From Dongia rigui (GTDB lineage: Bacteria; Pseudomonadota; Alphaproteobacteria; Dongiales; Dongiaceae), in NCBI RefSeq assembly GCF_034044635.1, contig NZ_JAXCLX010000002.1, positions 806,001 to 870,000 of the forward strand: a DNA stretch of 64,000 nt, in the 5' to 3' direction. The translations under genes and the position numbers were made by a program. The notes beneath the pieces are model-generated. The model did no database searches and had not been told where the DNA came from. It saw only the letters and a program-made list of their open reading frames with translations. Of this stretch, positions 33,089 through 41,941 are shown in pieces. Each line of letters begins with the position of its first letter. Positions within the stretch are counted from its first letter, which is position 1.

Positions 33089-33775
33089 TCAAATACCGAT
33101 AAAGGGCTGCATCAATCGGCCAATCCAGTTGCCAAAACGCAGTGGCGCATCGGTCACCGCAAGGCAAATGCAGATATCTTCCTTGCCCGCGATGGGACGG
33201 TGATTGACCGACTCATCTGCAACTTCGATATCGCCCCGAGCGTAATGCTGACCTTGCGAGGCATAGCTGCCCTTGAGCACGAGAGTCAATTCGGTCCCGC
33301 CATGGGTGTGACCGAAAACCGATCTGCCGGGCGCAATGCGCAGCAACCGCGCTGTGGTTGAACCGCTGCGCAGAAGCGGCATGTGGTCGATGCCTGGACC
33401 AATCGCTCGCCATTTGGCGCTATCGAGGTCGCCGCCGACATATTGCCGAACGGGCGCCGGAAGGATCGGCTGGGCGCCGGCCGCCAGCGGCGCTGCATCA
33501 TTTTTCACCGGACCCGACATTAGCTTGGCGCGCGCCAGGGTGGCGGCAAATGCACCTTGGCCCATGGACGCTTCCGGCAGTTCTTCGATCAGATCGCCGC
33601 CGACAGATTCAAACAGCGCCACGTGGCTCCGGCAGGCCGGGCAGAGGGTCAGGTGACTAGCGACTGCCAGCGCGCTTGCTTCGTCCAGCGCACCGCTCGC
33701 ATAGGCTGCGATCAATTCATCGCCCGGATGATAGTCCGGATATCGGTGCGATCGGCGACGTGCCAAGGTATTCAT
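33089..33775 (-). CDS. chrR: Anti-sigma factor ChrR (zinc-binding, cupin domain)
   Basis: A 228-residue anti-sigma factor of the ChrR family. The N-terminal zinc site H16, H41, C45, C48 has exactly the spacing of Rhodobacter ChrR (H6, H31, C35, C38). The C-terminal cupin has H156, H158, E162 and H192, again with the spacing of its second zinc site (H141, H143, E147, H177). ChrR holds RpoE inactive until singlet oxygen triggers its degradation. ATG overlaps the rpoE stop by 4 nt, so the two are translated together in a fixed ratio. Confidence 0.95.
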   Translation of the reverse strand: MNTLARRRSHRYPDYHPGDELIAAYASGALDEASALAVASHLTLCPACRSHVALFESVGGDLIEELPEASMGQGAFAATLARAKLMSGPVKNDAAPLAAGAQPILPAPVRQYVGGDLDSAKWRAIGPGIDHMPLLRSGSTTARLLRIAPGRSVFGHTHGGTELTLVLKGSYASQGQHYARGDIEVADESVNHRPIAGKEDICICLAVTDAPLRFGNWIGRLMQPFIGI

Positions 33776-34365
33776 GACGTAGGCTCTCCCAGCGCCTTGC
33801 GGAATCTCTGAAAGGCGAGGCGCATGCGCGACTTGACGGTACCGAGCGGAATGCCGAGTTCAGCGGCAATCTCGGCGTGAGGTTTATCCTCGTAGAAGGA
33901 AAGGCGGACGATCCGCGCCTGTTCCTGTGGTAGCGCGGCGAGCGCCGCCCTGACGGCAACGGCCTGTCTGCCTTGATCGATCAAGGCATCCGGTGCCTCA
34001 GGCTCGTCGGGCACAAGGGCAGGATCATCGAAATCCACTTCCGGGCGACGTTGGCGGCGAAAGGCGTCTATGCGGAGGTTCCGCGCGATCGAGAATATCC
34101 AGGTTCCAGCACCGGCTTTCTCGGCATCAAAGAGATGCGCCTTGCGCCAGACTGACGCCATCGCTTCCTGGGCAAGTTCCTCGGCCACGTCTTCCGGCGC
34201 GCCCAACTTACGCATATAGGACTTCAGTCGTGGCGCGTAATGGCGGAAGAGCTCCGCAAAAACAGCCTCGTCCCGGACGGCCTTGAGGGCGGATAGCAGC
34301 GCCGTCATGCGTGCAGATTCGGTGCCCACGCCGACAACTTCTGGACTGGCGTCGATGGCAGTCAT
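33772..34365 (-). CDS. rpoE: ECF sigma factor RpoE (ECF11 type)
   Basis: A 197-residue ECF sigma factor. Region 2 spans about 30–95 (FAELFRHYAPRLKSYMRKLG, DVAEELAQEAMASVWRKAHLFD, WIFSIARNLRIDAFRR). Region 4 has LPQEQARIVRLSFYEDKPHAEIAAELGIPLGTVKSRMRLA. With ChrR next to it this is the singlet-oxygen-responsive sigma. The frame is open to an ATG at 34524, but an RpoE-type promoter at 34529–34558 would start transcription at about 34522, so that ATG is not usable. ATG at 34365 has AGGG upstream and gives a length near that of known RpoE proteins. Confidence 0.93.
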   Translation of the reverse strand: MTAIDASPEVVGVGTESARMTALLSALKAVRDEAVFAELFRHYAPRLKSYMRKLGAPEDVAEELAQEAMASVWRKAHLFDAEKAGAGTWIFSIARNLRIDAFRRQRRPEVDFDDPALVPDEPEAPDALIDQGRQAVAVRAALAALPQEQARIVRLSFYEDKPHAEIAAELGIPLGTVKSRMRLAFQRFRKALGEPTS

Positions 34366-34528
34366 CCTCGCCCTAGATGCATCTGTTTTGATACCATTGG
34401 CCCTTTTAGCGGTATTCTCGACCAGCCGCACCCTTCCTGAAAGAGGGGCGTCGGCGAGGGAACCGTCTAGCCGAGGCAGATCCAGGCCGCCCCAGGAGGT
34501 TTGGAAGGCAAATGCGTTTTCCATGTGA

Positions 34529-34558
34529 TGCTTACGTCGCCCGTCGCCTTCTGGATCA
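34529..34558 (-). promoter_or_regulatory. Probable RpoE-dependent promoter of rpoE–chrR
   Basis: On the minus strand TGATCC (34558–34553), 18 bases, then TAAGCA (34534–34529). This matches the TGATCC/TAAGA-like pattern known for Rhodobacter RpoE and has the same spacing as the two other copies in the island. It predicts positive autoregulation. Confidence 0.75.
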
Positions 34559-34580
34559 GCCGATCCACGTTAACAACTGG

Positions 34581-34610
34581 TGATCCGGGCCGGCTCGGCA
34601 GCCGTAAAAG
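34581..34610 (+). promoter_or_regulatory. Probable RpoE-dependent promoter of the amine oxidase–cfa operon
   Basis: TGATCC (34581–34586), 18 bases, then TAAAAG (34605–34610), on the plus strand and back to back with the rpoE promoter. The 5' leader to the ATG at 34692 would be about 75 nt. Confidence 0.7.
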
Positions 34611-34691
34611 GCTCTGATACAGGGATTTTTTTGTTTTATCCAAGCGAAGGCTCGGCCGATTGGCTCGGCCGAGCGATCGCAAAGGCGCTTC

Positions 34692-36122
34692 ATGGCCCCC
34701 AACGACCAGCATTTTCAGTCTCCCGAAATCCGCCACCCACAATATTCGACAGGTCACCCGGACAGCGAGAACCGTAGGCGTATTGCCGTGATTGGCGCTG
34801 GCATTTCCGGTATGTCGGCTGCTTGGCTGCTGGCGCAGCGCCACGATGTCACGCTGTTTGAGAAGGGTGCCCTGCCTGGCGGCCACAGCAACACCGTCGA
34901 CCTCGATCTCACCGAAGGCCCGGTCGCTGTGGATACGGGCTTTATCGTCTTCAACGAACGCACCTATCCAAACCTCACGGCGCTTCTGGCCCATCTGGGC
35001 GTCGCCAGCCAGGCGACTCACATGTCGTTCGCGGCGTCATTGGATAACGGTAAGTTCGAATATTCGGGGTCCAGCCTGCGCGGCCTGTTCGCGCAGCGGC
35101 GCAATCTGCTGCGCCCGCGCATGTGGCGCATGATCGCCGATATTCTGCGTTTCTATCGCGAGGCGCGGGCAGGCGCATATCCTGCGGACGTGACGCTCGG
35201 GGACTATCTCAGCCAACGCGGCTATGGAAACAGTTTCATCAACGACCATTTGCTGCCGATGGGTGGGGCTATCTGGTCGACTTCGCCGCAACAGATGCTG
35301 GACCATCCCCTCAGCACGTTTGTCCGCTTCTGCGACAACCATGGCCTGCTGCAAGTGTCCGATCGTCCGGTGTGGCGCACGGTCTGCGGCGGAAGCCGGA
35401 ATTACGTTCAACGTCTGCTTCAGGATCACCCGATGCAGATCGTGCTCAATGCGTCAATCGCGCGCGTTGAGCGCGGTGCCGCGGGACCCAGCATCGTTTG
35501 CGATCGGGGCACAAGGCATAGCTTCGATGCCGTGGTGATCGCAGCACATGCGGATCAGGCGCTCGGTCTGCTGGCCCAACCGACGCCGCAGGAGACGTCC
35601 CTGCTGGGTGCCATGCGCTACATCGACAACGAAGCAGTGCTGCACAGCGACATCAGCATGATGCCGCGGCGCCGCGCGGCGTGGTCGAGCTGGAATGTCT
35701 TGGGTGCGGGTACGCCGGATGACCGTGGGCTCATTTGCGTCACCTATTGGATGAACCAGTTGCAGAACCTTGGCGTCCAACAGCCGGTTCTGGTGACGCT
35801 CAACCCGGACCGTACCATTCGCGAAGACCTTGTCTGGCGCCGCTTTTCCTATGCCCATCCACTGTTCGACGCCGCTGCCATTGCTGCGCAACGGCAATTG
35901 TGGTCGCTGCAAGGGCAGGGGGGAATCTGGTATTGCGGCGCCTATTTCGGCGCTGGCTTCCACGAGGACGGACTGCAGGCGGGATTGGCCGTGGCGGAAA
36001 GATTGGGAGAGGTAAGGCGGCCTTGGCAGGTTCGCGAGCCGACTGGGCGCATCCACGTCCAGGAGACACCAGAGATGGCGATGGGGCTGCCGGATCAGGC
36101 AGCGACAGGTGCCTGGGCATGA
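34692..36122 (+). CDS. FAD-dependent amine-oxidase-like protein (COG2907)
   Basis: A 476-residue NAD(P)/FAD-binding protein. The dinucleotide fold I-A-V-I-G-A-G-I-S-G-M-S-A-A (about 31–44) is preceded by a 30-residue polar extension. TVDLDLTEGPVAVDTGFIVFNERTYPN and the C-terminal YCGAYFGAGFHEDGLQAG are features of the COG2907 group. Proteins of this group lie beside DUF1365 and cfa genes in ECF11 regulons; a role in fatty-acid modification during photo-oxidative stress is suspected. It overlaps the DUF1365 gene by 4 nt. Substrate unknown. Confidence 0.87.
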   Translation: MAPNDQHFQSPEIRHPQYSTGHPDSENRRRIAVIGAGISGMSAAWLLAQRHDVTLFEKGALPGGHSNTVDLDLTEGPVAVDTGFIVFNERTYPNLTALLAHLGVASQATHMSFAASLDNGKFEYSGSSLRGLFAQRRNLLRPRMWRMIADILRFYREARAGAYPADVTLGDYLSQRGYGNSFINDHLLPMGGAIWSTSPQQMLDHPLSTFVRFCDNHGLLQVSDRPVWRTVCGGSRNYVQRLLQDHPMQIVLNASIARVERGAAGPSIVCDRGTRHSFDAVVIAAHADQALGLLAQPTPQETSLLGAMRYIDNEAVLHSDISMMPRRRAAWSSWNVLGAGTPDDRGLICVTYWMNQLQNLGVQQPVLVTLNPDRTIREDLVWRRFSYAHPLFDAAAIAAQRQLWSLQGQGGIWYCGAYFGAGFHEDGLQAGLAVAERLGEVRRPWQVREPTGRIHVQETPEMAMGLPDQAATGAWA

Positions 36123-36856
36123 TGCGATCGGCCATCTATTGCGGCAGCGTCATGCATCGACGGGTACGCCCAAAGAAGCATTACTTGCGCTATAGCGTGT
36201 TCTATCTTCTGCTTGATCTGGATGAGCTGCCTCAATTGAACATCCGTCTGCTGGGCGTGGAGCGGCGGTTCCTCTTTTCGTTCCACGCCGCTGACCATGG
36301 TGATGGCAGTGGTGATCTTAAGAGCTGGGTCCTGGGGCAACTCCGCGAAGGTGGCATACGCAACGAGGTGACGAACATTCGTCTTCTCTGTTTCCCGCGC
36401 GTGCTGGGCTTTGTTTTCAACCCGATCTCGGTCTACTTTTGCAGCGATGCGTCCGGCGAGATTGTCGCGATACTCTATGAAGTGAACAACACGTTCGGCG
36501 GCAGACACGCCTATGTGCTGCCGGCAGAGACCTGCAATGGGCGCGTCTTCCACAGCATTGACAAGCGGCTCTATGTATCGCCCTTCAACGATGTCTCCGG
36601 TGGCTATCATTTTGCTGTGCGGTTGCCAGCCGATAAAGTCGCACTTTCGATCGATCAGCATGATGGCGATGGGCCTATCCTGAAGGCCGCCTTTGCCGGT
36701 CGCCGGTACCCGCTCGACAACCTGAATTTGCTAAGGGTGGCCGTGCTTTATCCGCTTCTGACATTGAAGGTCGTGGCCGCCATCCATTGGGAGGCGTTGA
36801 AATTGTGGATGAAGGGCGTCCCGCTTCACAAACGGCCCCAGTTTCGACAATATTGA
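36119..36856 (+). CDS. DUF1365 family protein
   Basis: A 245-residue protein. Family segments are SAIYCGSVMHRRVRPKKHYLRYSVFYLLLDLDEL, NIRLLCFPRVLGFVFNPISVYFC, LYEVNNTFGGRHAYVLP and KRLYVSPFND. DUF1365 genes are typically linked to COG2907 oxidoreductases and cfa, as here, and are presumed to act in the same lipid-modification step. ATG at 36119 overlaps the previous stop; an ATG immediately follows it in frame. Confidence 0.92.
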   Translation: MMRSAIYCGSVMHRRVRPKKHYLRYSVFYLLLDLDELPQLNIRLLGVERRFLFSFHAADHGDGSGDLKSWVLGQLREGGIRNEVTNIRLLCFPRVLGFVFNPISVYFCSDASGEIVAILYEVNNTFGGRHAYVLPAETCNGRVFHSIDKRLYVSPFNDVSGGYHFAVRLPADKVALSIDQHDGDGPILKAAFAGRRYPLDNLNLLRVAVLYPLLTLKVVAAIHWEALKLWMKGVPLHKRPQFRQY

Positions 36857-36888: not shown

Positions 36889-38112
36889 ATGACGGGGTCG
36901 TCGGTGCGGCCGGAGCTTAGGGCGGGCGGGCAAGGCATCATGTCTGGGCTATGGGAAAACGTGTTCAACCGGACGCTCAACCATTTGAAGGTTGGGCGGC
37001 TCGGGGTGCTGTTTCCGGATGGTCGCCGGCATGATGTCGAGGGTGCCGAACCCGGCCCAGCCGCGGAGTTGGAGATTCGTGACGTCAAAGGCATCCAGCG
37101 CCTGTTGCGGGGAGGCGATATCGGCTTTGCCGAAGCCTATATGGCGGGCGAGGTGGATAGCCCCGACCTCACGGAGCTGATCGAGCTTGCAGCCCGCAAC
37201 GAGCACGCCGTGGCAGCAGCGTTGTCGGGCAAGAAGCTGGTCCGCGCGTGGCATCGTCTCTTGCACTTGATGCGGCCGAATACGCGATCTGGAGCCAAGC
37301 GCAACATTGCCTACCACTATGACCTCGGCAATGCGTTCTACGGGCAATGGCTTGACCCGTCGATGACCTATTCCTCGGCCTATTTCGAGCGGGGTGCCAC
37401 CGAGCTGCAGGCGGCGCAGGTCGACAAGTATCGGCGCGTGGCCGAACTTGCGGAACTGGCGCCTGGGAAGCATGTGCTGGAGATCGGCTGCGGCTGGGGT
37501 GGCTTTGCCGAGGTGGCGGCCCGGGACTTTGGTTGCAACGTCACGGGACTGACCTTGTCCAAGGAGCAGCTTGCCTTTGCCGAGGCGCGGATGCGGCGCC
37601 AGGGACTGTCCGACCGCGTCGAATTGCGGCTGCAGGATTACCGCGATTGTCCGGGCCGGTTCGACAGCATTGTGTCGATCGAGATGTTCGAGGCCGTGGG
37701 AGAAGCGCATTGGCGGCGGTATTTCGATGTCCTGCGCGAGAGGCTCAATCAGGGTGGCACGGCGGTGCTGCAGATCATCACGATTGCCGAGGAAAGGTTC
37801 GACAGCTATCGGCGCAATGCGGATTTCATCCAGCGCTATATCTTTCCTGGCGGCATGCTGCCCACCAGTTCCGCCTTGCGCAATCTGGCGCGGGATAGCG
37901 GTCTGCAATTCCTGGGCGAGGACGGATTTGCCAATTCCTATGCGCGCACGTTGCGGGAATGGCGCGAGTCATTTCTTCAGGCATGGCCGAAAATTCAGCC
38001 GTTGGGATTCGATGAACGGTTCCGCCGCATGTGGACATATTACCTCGCCTATTGCGAAGCGGGCTTCAAGGCCGGCTCGATCGACGTCGTGCATCTCAAA
38101 CTGCAACGCTAG
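36889..38112 (+). CDS. cfa: Cyclopropane-fatty-acyl-phospholipid synthase
   Basis: A 407-residue SAM-dependent enzyme that adds a methylene bridge to unsaturated acyl chains in membrane lipids. NIAYHYDLGNAFYGQWLDPSMTYSSAYFERG precedes the SAM motif V-L-E-I-G-C-G-W-G-G-F, then LTLSKEQLAFA and S-I-E-M-F-E-A-V-G. The C-terminal RMWTYYLAYCEAGFKAGSIDVVHLKLQ closes the family fold. GAAGGGGG precedes the ATG at 36889. It is part of the RpoE-linked operon; in Rhodobacter cfaA belongs to this regulon. Confidence 0.95.
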   Translation: MTGSSVRPELRAGGQGIMSGLWENVFNRTLNHLKVGRLGVLFPDGRRHDVEGAEPGPAAELEIRDVKGIQRLLRGGDIGFAEAYMAGEVDSPDLTELIELAARNEHAVAAALSGKKLVRAWHRLLHLMRPNTRSGAKRNIAYHYDLGNAFYGQWLDPSMTYSSAYFERGATELQAAQVDKYRRVAELAELAPGKHVLEIGCGWGGFAEVAARDFGCNVTGLTLSKEQLAFAEARMRRQGLSDRVELRLQDYRDCPGRFDSIVSIEMFEAVGEAHWRRYFDVLRERLNQGGTAVLQIITIAEERFDSYRRNADFIQRYIFPGGMLPTSSALRNLARDSGLQFLGEDGFANSYARTLREWRESFLQAWPKIQPLGFDERFRRMWTYYLAYCEAGFKAGSIDVVHLKLQR

Positions 38113-38135
38113 CCGATGGTGATGTATTGGGCGGC

Positions 38136-39428
38136 ATGAAATGGCGCGGCGGTTACCTGGTTTATGGTCTGCCGGCCCTTGCCCTTGCCATTCCCACCGT
38201 TCCGGCCCAGGTGTTGCTGCCCAGCTATTACGCTGGACCGCTCGGCTTGGGGTTGACTGCCACCGGCATTGCCATCTTCGTTGCGCGCTTCGTTGACGTG
38301 CTCAGCGACCCCCTGATCGGGCATTTCAGCGACGAGAGCGGTCGCCGCAAGCCGTTCATTGCGGTTGGTGCCGTCTTTGCTGCTGTCGCACTCCTCGCCC
38401 TCTTCGCGCCGCCACAGGGCATCGGGCCATTCTATCTCGGATGCTGGTACGCCTTGCTCTATATCGGCTGGTCTACGGTGATGGTCCCTTATGCGGCATG
38501 GGGCGCCGAACTCAGCGCGGATTACCGCGAACGCTCGACGATTGCCTCCTGGCGTGAGGGATTGGGGCTGCTGGGTATCAGTTTGGCGACAACCCTGCCG
38601 GCGCTCCTGCAATGGCATGGCTACGGCCAGGACGCGGCCATGTTGGTGACGGCCATTGTGGCCATCGTTCTCGGTGCGCCGGCACTGGTCATGCTGCTGG
38701 CCTGGGTTCCCGAAATTCGGACAAGCGGTTTAGCACCAGCAGGCAATTTGTTGGCCGCCTTTCGGGCGGCGGCGGCCAATCCGCCCTTTCGCCGGCTGCT
38801 TGGCGCCTGGTTCATCAACGGTATTGCCAATGGTCTGCCGGCCGGCCTCTTTCCGCTCTTCATCACGTCGTCCTTGCGCGCAAGCGATGTCGAAATGGGA
38901 TCGGTGCTGTTGATCTATTTCGCTGCCGCGGTTCTGGGCCTGCCGCTCTGGCTGTGGCTGCTTTCGCGACTGGACAAGCACCGGCTGTGGTGCCTCGCCA
39001 TGCTGATGGCGATCATAGCCTTTGCCTTTGTGCCGTTCCTGCCGCCAGGATCTATCGCGGCCTTTGCCGGGATCTGCGTCGTCACCGGGCTGGCCCTGGG
39101 TGCCGATCTCTCGCTGCCGCCCGCCATTCAGGCGGATGTGGTGGATTGGGATCGCCTGCAGCATCGCACCGACCGGGCCGGATTGTTCTTTGCCCTTTCC
39201 ACCATGTCGGGAAAACTCTCGGGGGCACTGGCGGTCGGCATCGCCTTTCCGCTATTGGCCTATCTTGGCGTCGACCCCGCCAACCCAGCCCAAGGAAGCT
39301 TTGCCGTGGCGGTGATCTATGCCTGGGTACCCTGCGTATTCAAGGCTGTAGCGGTGGGAATGATGTGGCGCTTTCCGATAGACCGGGCACGCCAAGCCGA
39401 CATGGCAGCGAGACTCCACCCGGATTGA
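38136..39428 (+). CDS. MFS transporter, GPH (glycoside-pentoside-hexuronide) type
   Basis: About 430 residues and roughly twelve membrane helices. DVLSDPLIGHFSDESGRRKPFIAVGA is the GPH-family loop 2–3 motif, and YALLYIGWSTVMVPYAAWGAELSADYRERSTI is the MelB-like segment. Family members carry sugars or other solutes with cations, but ECF11-linked versions may handle lipid-derived compounds. ATG at 38136 follows cfa by 23 nt; there is no strong ribosome site. Confidence 0.87.
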   Translation: MKWRGGYLVYGLPALALAIPTVPAQVLLPSYYAGPLGLGLTATGIAIFVARFVDVLSDPLIGHFSDESGRRKPFIAVGAVFAAVALLALFAPPQGIGPFYLGCWYALLYIGWSTVMVPYAAWGAELSADYRERSTIASWREGLGLLGISLATTLPALLQWHGYGQDAAMLVTAIVAIVLGAPALVMLLAWVPEIRTSGLAPAGNLLAAFRAAAANPPFRRLLGAWFINGIANGLPAGLFPLFITSSLRASDVEMGSVLLIYFAAAVLGLPLWLWLLSRLDKHRLWCLAMLMAIIAFAFVPFLPPGSIAAFAGICVVTGLALGADLSLPPAIQADVVDWDRLQHRTDRAGLFFALSTMSGKLSGALAVGIAFPLLAYLGVDPANPAQGSFAVAVIYAWVPCVFKAVAVGMMWRFPIDRARQADMAARLHPD

Positions 39429-39450: not shown

Positions 39451-40050
39451 ATGGTCGGTTTCAAACGGATCTTAGGCGTGGGCCTCCTGCTCGCGGCCGG
39501 TATTGCGCTCAGTGGATGCAATACGATGAAGATTGAAGATTTTGCCGGCAAACAGCCGGTCCTTAAGCCAGAGACTTACTTCCTGGGCGAGACGCGTGGA
39601 TCGGGCATGTTCCACGACCGCTTCGGAAATCTCCGCCGCCAGTTCGTAGTTGACATGGTGGGCGAGATGGACGGCGACGTCCTGGTCCTCACTGAGGATT
39701 TCGTCTACGACGATGGCGAGAAGGAGCAACGCGTTTGGCATCTGAAGCCGATTGGTGGCGGGCGCTATGAAGGCGTCGCCGGCGACGTCATCGGCACGGC
39801 CAACGGTGAGGCTGCAGGCAATGCCTTCCAATGGTCCTACCAGATCGACCTAAAGGTCGGCGAAGGCCGTTGGCGCGTGTCATTTGACGATTGGATGTTC
39901 TTGCAGCCGGGCGGGGTCATTCTCAACCGGGCCACTGTGACCCGGTGGGGCATAGAGATCGGCACGCTCACCGTGTCGTTTCACAAGAAAGACGCCAAGT
40001 CAGCGTTTCTCGGGACGCAGCCGCAGACGGTGGCGCAGGCGGCGGAATAA
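39451..40050 (+). CDS. DUF3833 family lipoprotein
   Basis: A 199-residue lipoprotein (signal to LLLAAGIALSGC, lipobox L-S-G-C). The mature region has KIEDFAGKQPVLKPETYFLGETRGSGMFHDRFGNLRRQF and ends RATVTRWGIEIGTLTVSFHKK, as in DUF3833. It is a common member of ECF11/cfa operons. Function unknown; an envelope lipid-binding role is possible. It overlaps the convergent NTF2-like gene by 51 nt. Confidence 0.9.
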   Translation: MVGFKRILGVGLLLAAGIALSGCNTMKIEDFAGKQPVLKPETYFLGETRGSGMFHDRFGNLRRQFVVDMVGEMDGDVLVLTEDFVYDDGEKEQRVWHLKPIGGGRYEGVAGDVIGTANGEAAGNAFQWSYQIDLKVGEGRWRVSFDDWMFLQPGGVILNRATVTRWGIEIGTLTVSFHKKDAKSAFLGTQPQTVAQAAE

Positions 40051-40449
40051 GCCGCCGATGAGCGGGAAATACTCGAACAGCCCGCTTGCCAGATCCCAGT
40101 GGTCCTCATGGAAGCTGATGCGGCCATCTGCCGAAAAGCGGATGTCGCTCATACCAACGACGGACCAAGGTCTGTTGCCAAGTCGACGCAGCAACCCGCT
40201 ATAGCGCCATTTGACGAAGGCCTGATCGGGTGCAGCCCAGGCAATTGCGATAACCTCCACCTGTGGAGTCGCAACGGCATCGGCAGAATCGCGAAAGATG
40301 TGCTTGAGATCGTCGCGCCCTGTGAGGTCGTTGATCGGATCCTTGAAACGAACATCCAGGGTCGTCAATGCATCAAGGCGGTCGAGGTCACGTTCGGGTG
40401 AGGGATCGGCCCAAAGGGCGAGATATGCGTCGAGGATCGGTTCGTTCAT
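40000..40449 (-). CDS. NTF2-like (SnoaL-fold) protein
   Basis: A 149-residue nuclear-transport-factor-2-like protein. It contains LDAYLALWADPSPERDLDRLDALTTLDVRFKDPINDLTGRDDL and FVKWRYSGLL, and ends with an Arg-rich tail. NTF2-like proteins are regular partners of rpoE–chrR in ECF11 clusters; whether they act as enzymes or ligand binders is unknown. ATG at 40449 overlaps the SDR gene stop by 4 nt. Confidence 0.85.
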   Translation of the reverse strand: MNEPILDAYLALWADPSPERDLDRLDALTTLDVRFKDPINDLTGRDDLKHIFRDSADAVATPQVEVIAIAWAAPDQAFVKWRYSGLLRRLGNRPWSVVGMSDIRFSADGRISFHEDHWDLASGLFEYFPLIGGLFRRLRHRLRLRPEKR

Positions 40450-41189
40450 CGACCGATCATACGCCGGGTGAGGGCAAAATAAAGTCTGTATGGAAGCAGC
40501 CGGCCTAACTTCAGCAAAAGCGCGAAGCGCCACGGAAAGACGATCTCAAAGCCAGTACCTGCAAGGCCTCGGCGAATGCGGCGCGCGGCGTCCTCTGGGG
40601 TCAGCAGAAAGGGCATGGGGAAGTCATTGCGCTTGGTCATCGGCGTCAGAACGAAGCCAGGATTGACCAGCTGCAGCTTGATGCCAGCGGCATCGGCCTC
40701 TGGCTTCAAGGCCTCTGCCATGTTGATGAGTGCGGCCTTGCTGGCGCCATAGGCCGCGGCCTTTGGCAGGCCACGATAACCCGCCACTGAAGCGACGATC
40801 GCAATCTGGCCAGTACCACGGCGGCGCATTGATTTCAGCAAAGGATCCAGGCAGTTGGCGACGCCTTGGACATTGGTGGCAAATGTTTGCAAGACGCGAT
40901 CGGCAGTGAAATCAGCAATATCCATCGGATCATAATGACCGGCATTGAGGACGGCACAGTCAATGGGACCGTGGGTCGTTTCTATTTCGGCCACCGCCGC
41001 GCTGACCATCCTGGCATCGGTGACATCAAGGTCATGGGGCATGATGTTGGCGTTCGTCCCGGCAGCGTCTTGCAGGACGGACAGGCGTCGGCCGCTGATG
41101 ACGACCCTGTCGCCAGCTGCGGCAATCTGAAGGGCGAGTTCTCGGCCAATACCGCTACCGCCCCCGGTGATCCACCACAGCTTACCCAT
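40446..41189 (-). CDS. Short-chain dehydrogenase/reductase
   Basis: A 247-residue SDR. The cofactor motif T-G-G-G-S-G-I-G is near the start, N-A-G is in the middle, and the active site S–(13)–Y-G-A-S-K is complete. ATG at 41189 overlaps the upstream stop (ATGA); the frame further upstream is not used. It is cotranscribed with the NTF2-like and DUF6134-like genes. Substrate unknown, probably a hydrophobic alcohol or ketone given the regulon. Confidence 0.9.
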   Translation of the reverse strand: MGKLWWITGGGSGIGRELALQIAAAGDRVVISGRRLSVLQDAAGTNANIMPHDLDVTDARMVSAAVAEIETTHGPIDCAVLNAGHYDPMDIADFTADRVLQTFATNVQGVANCLDPLLKSMRRRGTGQIAIVASVAGYRGLPKAAAYGASKAALINMAEALKPEADAAGIKLQLVNPGFVLTPMTKRNDFPMPFLLTPEDAARRIRRGLAGTGFEIVFPWRFALLLKLGRLLPYRLYFALTRRMIGR

Positions 41190-41896
41190 CACTGCGCGGT
41201 TGCCAACTGGGCCGGACAGTCGCGACAACGATATTCTATCATCGAACCGTCCTTGCCCTGGAAGCGCATCCCAAGCCAGCGGCCTTCGGCGTCGTACCAG
41301 GTTTCGAGGTTGAGATCGCCGGCGAGCGTATAGCGATCTGCGCGGGCCATCCCCGTCGCTGTCGGCACGAAGGCGTCGCTAAGCTTGCTCAGGCGCACCT
41401 CGTTCACCCGACCCGTGATCGTATTGATGATCTCGCCTTGCGAAATAAAGCTTTTGGACCAATGTTCGGTAGGTGGCAACGCTGTCGACAGCATCGTACT
41501 GCCAGCCGATCCGGTTACACGCAATTTGCCGTTAAGCTGCTCGATCGATACTTGACTTGTGTCGCCGTCATCAGATGTCACGGCGTCAAGATCGACCATG
41601 GCACCAGCCCGCCAGACTGAGCGCGAATGATAGTCAAAGCGATATGCGGTCATGAACAGGAATGGTACGGCAATTTTAGACCGCGCTTCAGCAATGATCG
41701 TGTCGCCGTGGCGCTGAAACGAAATCAGATGTTCGCCAACCGCGTCGCCGTTGCGTAGGATCTCGTATCGCGCTTCTGGACCGTAAAGGGTGACCGGGTC
41801 GACAAAATGAACGGGCATGCCGTCGGCCATGGCCAGGGAAGGCATGCCTAGACCGACCAGGAACGTGATGGCTCTGCCGCAGCGTGATAGGTACAT
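41189..41896 (-). CDS. DUF6134/DUF3108-like periplasmic protein
   Basis: A 235-residue exported protein with signal MYLSRCGRAITFLVGLGMPSLAMADG. A beta-rich domain follows (ARYEILRNGDAVGEHLISFQRHGDTIIAEARSKI, YRFDYHSRSVWRAGAMVDLDAVTSDDG), with a C-terminal C-R-D-C motif. It resembles the DUF6134 group, which is often seen near SDR genes in ECF11 clusters. Function unknown. ATG at 41896 follows GGAGGA. Confidence 0.75.
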   Translation of the reverse strand: MYLSRCGRAITFLVGLGMPSLAMADGMPVHFVDPVTLYGPEARYEILRNGDAVGEHLISFQRHGDTIIAEARSKIAVPFLFMTAYRFDYHSRSVWRAGAMVDLDAVTSDDGDTSQVSIEQLNGKLRVTGSAGSTMLSTALPPTEHWSKSFISQGEIINTITGRVNEVRLSKLSDAFVPTATGMARADRYTLAGDLNLETWYDAEGRWLGMRFQGKDGSMIEYRCRDCPAQLATAQ

Positions 41897-41911: not shown

Positions 41912-41941
41912 GTTCTACGCAGAAGCTGCCGGGTTGGATCA
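41912..41941 (-). promoter_or_regulatory. Probable RpoE-dependent promoter of the DUF6134–SDR–NTF2 operon
   Basis: On the minus strand TGATCC (41941–41936), 18 bases, then TAGAAC (41917–41912). It overlaps the end of the sensor kinase gene and lies just upstream of the ribosome site, giving a very short leader. The spacing is identical to the two copies near rpoE. Confidence 0.6.

Follow-up and report, generated by a model that had tools for sequence, protein, structure and literature searches.

RpoE-type promoters face both rpoE-chrR and a predicted furan fatty acid operon in Dongia rigui, with the rpoE start codon at a predicted transcription start

The 167-bp gap between rpoE and ufaD (34525-34691) in Dongia rigui contains two back-to-back promoter elements of the RpoE (ECF11) type. 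Judged from sequence, it is very probable that these promoters serve rpoE-chrR on one side and a furan fatty acid (ufa) operon on the other, and that a third promoter of the same type serves a convergent DUF6134 operon; rpoE is probably leaderless. The window referred to throughout is the whole stretch of DNA analyzed, 64,000 nucleotides from contig NZ_JAXCLX010000002.1, and its relevant features are collected in Table 1. The window sequence bears out the gap and the two divergent elements reported in the initial annotation: the minus-strand element is TGATCCAGAAGGCGACGGGCGACGTAAGCA at 34558-34529 and the plus-strand element is TGATCCGGGCCGGCTCGGCAGCCGTAAAAG at 34581-34610, with the -35 ends of the two promoters 23 bp apart.

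Table 1. Features of the rpoE/ufaD locus and the neighboring convergent operon, in window coordinates
Feature	Position	Strand	Basis or remark
chrR, zinc anti-sigma factor, 4-base overlap with rpoE stop	33089..33775	-	TIGR02451, 207.9 bits vs cut-off 124.5
rpoE, ECF sigma factor (250 aa; sigma region 2 preceded by 91 residues)	33772..34524	-	Pfam PF04542, PF08281
ATG of rpoE, 8 nt past CGTA, at predicted transcription start	34522..34524	-	sequence; leaderless mRNA predicted
Predicted promoter of rpoE-chrR, RpoE (ECF11) type, TGATCC-N16-CGTA	34533..34558	-	exact motif; kept in relatives
Predicted promoter of furan fatty acid operon, RpoE type, TGATCC-N16-CGTA	34581..34606	+	exact motif; kept in relatives
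ufaD-like FAD oxidoreductase (RSP1091 type), amine oxidase family	34692..36122	+	PF01593; context as in PMC7380195
Antisense TGATCC-N16-CGTA match inside ufaD, ~880 bp upstream of rpoE	35403..35428	-	exact motif
ufaO-like DUF1365 protein (RSP1090 type)	36119..36856	+	PF07103, E 2.1e-78
ufaM-like SAM-dependent fatty acyl methylase, CMAS family	36889..38112	+	PF02353
MFS transporter ORF, real start perhaps 3' of 38112	38031..39428	+	PF13347
DUF3833 gene	39451..40050	+	PF12915
SnoaL-like protein	40000..40452	-	PF12680
Short-chain dehydrogenase (SDR)	40446..41228	-	PF00106
DUF6134 protein, ATG at 41896	41189..41896	-	PF19630
Third RpoE-type promoter (predicted), TGATCC-N16-CGTA, before DUF6134-SDR-SnoaL	41916..41941	-	exact motif

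The genes and promoters of the locus have the makeup of an ECF11 system. The sigma factor is related to Rhodobacter sphaeroides RpoE, its top PDB match being 2q1z_A with an E value of 2.3e-45 (runner-up 2.2e-16). Alignment of ChrR with 2z2s_B shows that all eight zinc ligands given in PMC6852236 are retained, the H, H, C, C set of the anti-sigma domain (H16, H41, C45, C48) and the H, H, E, H set of the cupin domain (H156, H158, E162, H192). TGATCC-N16-CGTA sites are found at rpoE and at the core targets.

Each element of the pair had been described as TGATCC followed, after 18 bases, by TAA. The -35 part of that description stands, but the -10 element is CGTA(A) behind a 16-base spacer, and TAA is only its end. 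The pattern TGATCC-N17..19-TAA occurs three times in the window against 0.55 expected (three were attained in 1 of 100 shuffles), and it is a loose pattern, since the 4.66-Mb genome contains 28 matches. A more exact motif is available from other bacteria: in the consulted parts of the respective reports, ChIP-seq in Pseudomonas syringae gave the ECF11 consensus TGATCC-N16-CGTA (PMC5507510), the Pos19 promoter of R. sphaeroides reads TGATCC(N15)GCGTA (PMC5036791), and Shewanella oneidensis promoters combine TGATCC with CGTATT or CGTAAT (PMC4336711). Both window promoters match the published TGATCC-N16-CGTA exactly. When the D. rigui genome was scanned for TGATCC-N6..30-CGTA, 67 matches were obtained over all spacers, nine of them at spacer 16, compared with a mean of 2.4 and a maximum of 7 at the 24 other spacers. 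Four of the nine fall inside 7.4 kb at the rpoE/ufaD locus.

Conservation was assessed in 107 loci of UfaD relatives, comprising 27 relatives and the best 80 among the matches listed in titled genome records, with the window itself excluded; the scan for the pair was limited to the 66 loci in which rpoE adjoins ufaD and is divergent from it. Going by record titles, the loci include members of what we take to be Rhizobiales, Caulobacterales, Rhodospirillales and Sphingomonadales, along with marine Gammaproteobacteria and some Betaproteobacteria. Toward rpoE, an exact site is present in 53/66 and one with at most one mismatch in 63/66 (none at that threshold in 3), and the ufaD-facing site is exact in 39/66 and within one mismatch in 58/66 (none in 8). 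Both sites are exact in 33 of the divergent loci and within one mismatch in 55. With control spacers of 10-15 and 17-22, exact matches were found in at most 1/66 on either side, and matches within one mismatch in at most 6/66. These counts agree with the view of the initial annotation that RpoE-type promoters face rpoE-chrR, implying autoregulation, and a lipid operon. An origin of both sites as chance matches in a GC-rich gap, with other promoters running the genes, could appeal to the 28 genomic matches of the loose pattern, but it is extremely improbable in view of a conservation that is specific to one spacing across Alpha-, Beta- and Gammaproteobacteria and that nearly vanishes at the control spacers.

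Two members of the genus depart from this arrangement. G001 (locus L246) has kept rpoE-chrR, a ufaM-like gene and the rpoE promoter in a genome without a UfaD match, and toward the ufaM-like gene no site was found even at three mismatches. The genome of G005 has two sites, neither at a recognized target; ChrR has no match in it, and its UfaD matches are all weak (best E 1.5e-5).

The rightward genes had been called a cfa operon. A lipid operon they remain, but cfa is not the best name, because another CMAS (Cfa-type) gene, with 36% identity to the ufaM-like gene, sits elsewhere in the genome. According to the portion of PMC7380195 consulted, UfaD, UfaO (DUF1365) and UfaM make furan fatty acids in R. 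sphaeroides and Rhodopseudomonas palustris. At the family level, the window unites a ufaD flavoprotein, a ufaO DUF1365 protein and a ufaM methylase. A better reading of the operon is therefore ufaD-ufaO-ufaM, with a predicted function in furan fatty acid synthesis; the ufa names are assigned by family and gene order alone.

The predicted third promoter lies ahead of the DUF6134-SDR-SnoaL genes. Seventeen relatives have a minus-strand DUF6134 gene downstream of ufaD; 13 of them carry this promoter as an exact match and 15 within one mismatch, and with eight control spacers there were no exact matches in the 17 and at most 1/17 within one mismatch. Neither this conserved promoter nor the position of the rpoE start codon, at the +1 predicted for its promoter, had been picked up in the initial annotation. 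RpoE is predicted to drive both the DUF3833 (+) and the SnoaL (-) gene, whose 3' ends overlap convergently by 51 bases (40000-40050).

The antisense match inside ufaD, which is also the third window match of the loose pattern, was considered as a second rpoE promoter and rejected, having no exact counterpart at that place in the 107 relatives. One-mismatch matches were found nearby only in L099, a genus member, and L156, and four other spacers gave 0-1. It is probably a chance match.

A search of the whole genome had been proposed along with the initial reading of the pair and was run with the published motif. The nine sites precede or lie in rpoE, ufaD, ufaD in antisense, the DUF6134 operon, a photolyase gene, tspO, a DUF5939-nucleotidyl cyclase gene, a bcp-like gene for an AhpC/TSA-family peroxiredoxin, and a LON-domain gene. 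A sense gene starts within 250 bp downstream of 8/9 N16 sites versus 7/27 wrong-spacer sites, where the 27 are those of 58 wrong-spacer sites with loci at hand and gene starts in both counts come from a simple codon-usage caller. For all eight, the distance to the gene start is no more than 230 bp; two of them, the bcp and LON sites, are located within the preceding gene.

What is new here is the rpoE start codon at the predicted +1 of its own promoter. An ATG 8-9 nt past CGTA opens the rpoE frame in the window and in five other genus members with rpoE-chrR (in G006 the promoter has one mismatch). Among the divergent loci with the promoter, 52/63 have an in-frame start at 8-9 nt on the rpoE side (48 ATG, 4 GTG, 0 TTG), a count that excludes L160, where an ATG at that place meets a stop two codons later. 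The same counting on the ufaD side gives ATG in 2/58 and no GTG. Transcription starts as a rule have a pyrimidine at -1 and a purine at +1, and 51/53 loci (L160 included) have C or T immediately before the rpoE start codon. A ribosome-site-like GGAG, GAGG or AGGA is present in 6/53 of the spacers between CGTA and the start; AGGG, present in 15/53, might serve as a weak ribosome site in transcripts begun further upstream. Start position, AUG preference and the pyrimidine at -1, all of them sequence features, agree with the predicted +1, and we infer that the rpoE mRNA is leaderless and RpoE extended at its N terminus, a state that would be widespread but not universal. Leaderless mRNAs occur in Alphaproteobacteria, with 171 in Sinorhizobium meliloti, all starting with AUG, in the passages of PMC3616915 consulted. 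A leaderless rpoE-chrR start was not found in a literature search whose scope stopped short of supplements and most subscription journals.

Translation from the +1 ATG would give RpoE an N-terminal tail. The residues ahead of sigma region 2 would then number about 60 at the median (53 loci, ungapped estimate) versus about 31, by alignment, in the R. sphaeroides protein. In the 50 of 63 loci that have at least 20 codons between the +1 ATG and the equivalent of the R. sphaeroides RpoE start, the rpoE frame is open across the tail in 47, compared with only 12 and 25 loci in which the two remaining forward frames are open; the reverse frames are open in 27, 28 and 11 of the 50, a sign that open frames are nothing unusual in DNA this rich in GC. 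GC content by codon position is 0.63/0.58/0.62 in the tail versus 0.67/0.46/0.73 in the core (51 loci), a weak coding character, and codon-position GC was dropped as proof of coding. Close pairs differ in the tail at codon positions 1, 2 and 3 by 45, 52 and 84 changes (8 pairs, not all independent). The nearly flat GC and the codon-position differences therefore point to a tail that is translated with weak constraint, or translated only in part.

The promoters could also be real while rpoE is translated from an ordinary internal start, the +1 ATG being a by-product and the tail unmade or partly made. In-frame internal starts are present in the window at 34365 and 34308, the codon-position signal of the tail is weak, and in 13 annotated plasmid loci (from L307-L324) the database rpoE start lies downstream of the ATG at 8-10 nt in five, at it in six and upstream of it in two. 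We nevertheless regard such internal initiation as unlikely, since at 8-9 nt ATG is preferred over GTG and GTG over TTG across distant lineages, a pyrimidine almost always precedes the start codon, and the rpoE frame stays open far more often than the other forward frames. A leaderless start at the predicted +1 remains the preferred reading, and the start codon there is a simple, testable feature, widely conserved and often missed by database annotation.

Wider samples gave a mixed picture, which is why the +1 start is described as widespread rather than universal. A class-wide sample of 142 genomes had a ChrR match in 62, and 48 loci were examined, a set that omits the D. rigui genome, G001, four genomes of the first set and partial matches. 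There, rpoE lies beside chrR in 38/48, with a promoter within one mismatch in 29, four of which also belong to the 66 divergent loci; a start at 8-9 nt is present in 14/29 and at 10-11 nt in 3 more. In the first set, rpoE-chrR is located away from ufaD in 10 loci, nine with a site, and the start at 8-9 nt is present in 4/9 and absent in 5/9, the latter including a Rhodobacteraceae MAG (L200). A plasmid set of 20 rpoE-chrR loci, hand-picked from the matches listed, has a promoter within one mismatch in 17/20 (16 exact), with ATG at 8-9 nt in 14/17 and at 10 nt in one. The P. asturiensis locus and a Pseudoalteromonas plasmid locus have the promoter without an ATG at 8-10 nt. No promoter site was found at the rpoE-chrR plasmid loci of Sinorhizobium B11, R. 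johnstonii 3841 and A. brasilense Sp7. The plasmid of Qingshengfaniella (Rhodobacterales; L321) combines the divergent layout with a start at 8-9 nt.

As a mechanism, we propose that RNA polymerase carrying RpoE would transcribe rpoE-chrR leftward and ufaD-ufaO-ufaM-MFS-DUF3833 rightward from the shared gap, and the convergent DUF6134-SDR-SnoaL operon from the third promoter. ChrR would hold RpoE until a stress, singlet oxygen in Rhodobacter, triggers the loss of ChrR, and released RpoE would then bring about positive autoregulation and a change in lipids. By analogy with Rhodobacter, UfaD/UfaO activity might in turn promote ChrR turnover and close the loop. The predicted first base of the leftward transcript is the A of the rpoE start codon, which would entail leaderless translation of rpoE and hence the N-terminal tail. 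Singlet oxygen as the signal here is an analogy, and the locus may be called a singlet-oxygen switch only in that sense, because the genome shows no reaction-centre gene: a search for family PF00124 gave no matches in it and was positive in 1/14 control genomes, a cyanobacterium.

The closeness of the two promoters raises the possibility that RNA polymerase binding to them is mutually exclusive, in which case the pair would divide regulator from output instead of working as two independent promoters. Over the 55 loci with both sites, the distance between -35 elements has a median of 31 bp, is at most 41 bp in 39 and only 4-6 bp in 7, and such short distances, like that in the window, would favor exclusion. 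Even so, it is an improbable account, for the distance spans 4 to 265 bp. Helical phasing of the two -35 elements was rejected (Rayleigh p 0.54 to 0.91), and since the distance varies without helical phase, no fixed -35 geometry has been kept.

Promoters for RpoE on both operons are known from two other systems, so the pair adds to a known kind. In R. sphaeroides, as given in the consulted portion of PMC3818230, RSP1091-1087 lies upstream of rpoEchrR (RSP1092-1093) with an RpoE promoter ahead of each, and RSP1091/1090 are required for ChrR turnover under singlet oxygen. The window resembles this locus in having RpoE promoters on both rpoE-chrR and the ufaD-ufaO operon. It differs in that ufaM, located elsewhere in R. 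sphaeroides (RSP2144), is inside the operon here, and the SDR gene, in the same operon there (RSP1087), here belongs to the convergent operon, which has a predicted promoter of its own. Stenotrophomonas maltophilia has, according to the part of PMC11832516 consulted, smlt2375-2367 divergent from rpoEc-chrR-chrA; these genes, thought to modify membrane lipids, are up in a chrR deletion in an RpoEc-dependent manner, and each of the two transcripts has its own putative sigma box in the shared gap. This locus is like the window in its divergent layout with a box per side, and unlike it in belonging to a Gammaproteobacterium and in comprising a nine-gene cluster; singlet oxygen tolerance was barely changed there (PMC11832516). 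The divergent pair in D. rigui repeats the locus logic of Rhodobacter and Stenotrophomonas in a genome that shows no reaction-centre gene.

For the start codon, the closest likeness is sigma-R' of Streptomyces coelicolor, where, in the portion of PMC4921905 consulted, a sigma-dependent promoter yields an N-terminally longer (55 aa), unstable isoform. Sigma-R shares with the window a zinc anti-sigma partner and, as predicted for RpoE, a longer form made from the sigma factor's own promoter. It is found in another phylum, and a second, downstream promoter makes its short form (PMC4921905), whereas in the window and its relatives only the longer rpoE frame was seen from the sigma-dependent promoter. 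The parallel with sigma-R' is a proposal made here. More speculatively, and with the odds against it, many Proteobacteria may have kept the ECF11 sigma gene leaderless at its own promoter such that only the stress transcript makes extended RpoE, a counterpart of sigma-R' of separate origin; the extension or the leaderless route would alter the stability or translation of the induced form and so shape the feedback. If stress-made RpoE does differ at its N terminus or in being made by a leaderless route, studies of a protein annotated as shorter could have overlooked one level of regulation.

The same TGATCC-N16-CGTA motif is used by PSPTO_1043/1042 of P. syringae and RpoE2-ChrR of S. oneidensis, where photolyase and cfa loci are among the targets (PMC5507510, PMC4336711); the targets there are scattered, and a divergent rpoE/ufaD gap is not described in the consulted parts of these two papers. 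The photolyase site of the D. rigui genome matches this known target and is also present in genus members G002, G003, G004 and G006, while the DUF6134 site recurs in G002 and G006. In all, six other genus members have 40 exact sites, 19 at a recognized target (the rpoE and ufaD sites included) and 21 at none. Because the exact bcp and LON sites are absent from the other genus members and found only in D. rigui among the seven genus genomes, these two genes are weak candidates for regulon membership. The site at the DUF5939-nucleotidyl cyclase gene (G000:C1:1979311, L129), also present in G001-G004, may mark a second-messenger branch of the response. The tspO site (G000:C1:562247, L128) is 28 bp ahead of its gene and occurs also in G002, and in Rhizobium tropici (L322) the TspO gene is the divergent neighbor of rpoE.
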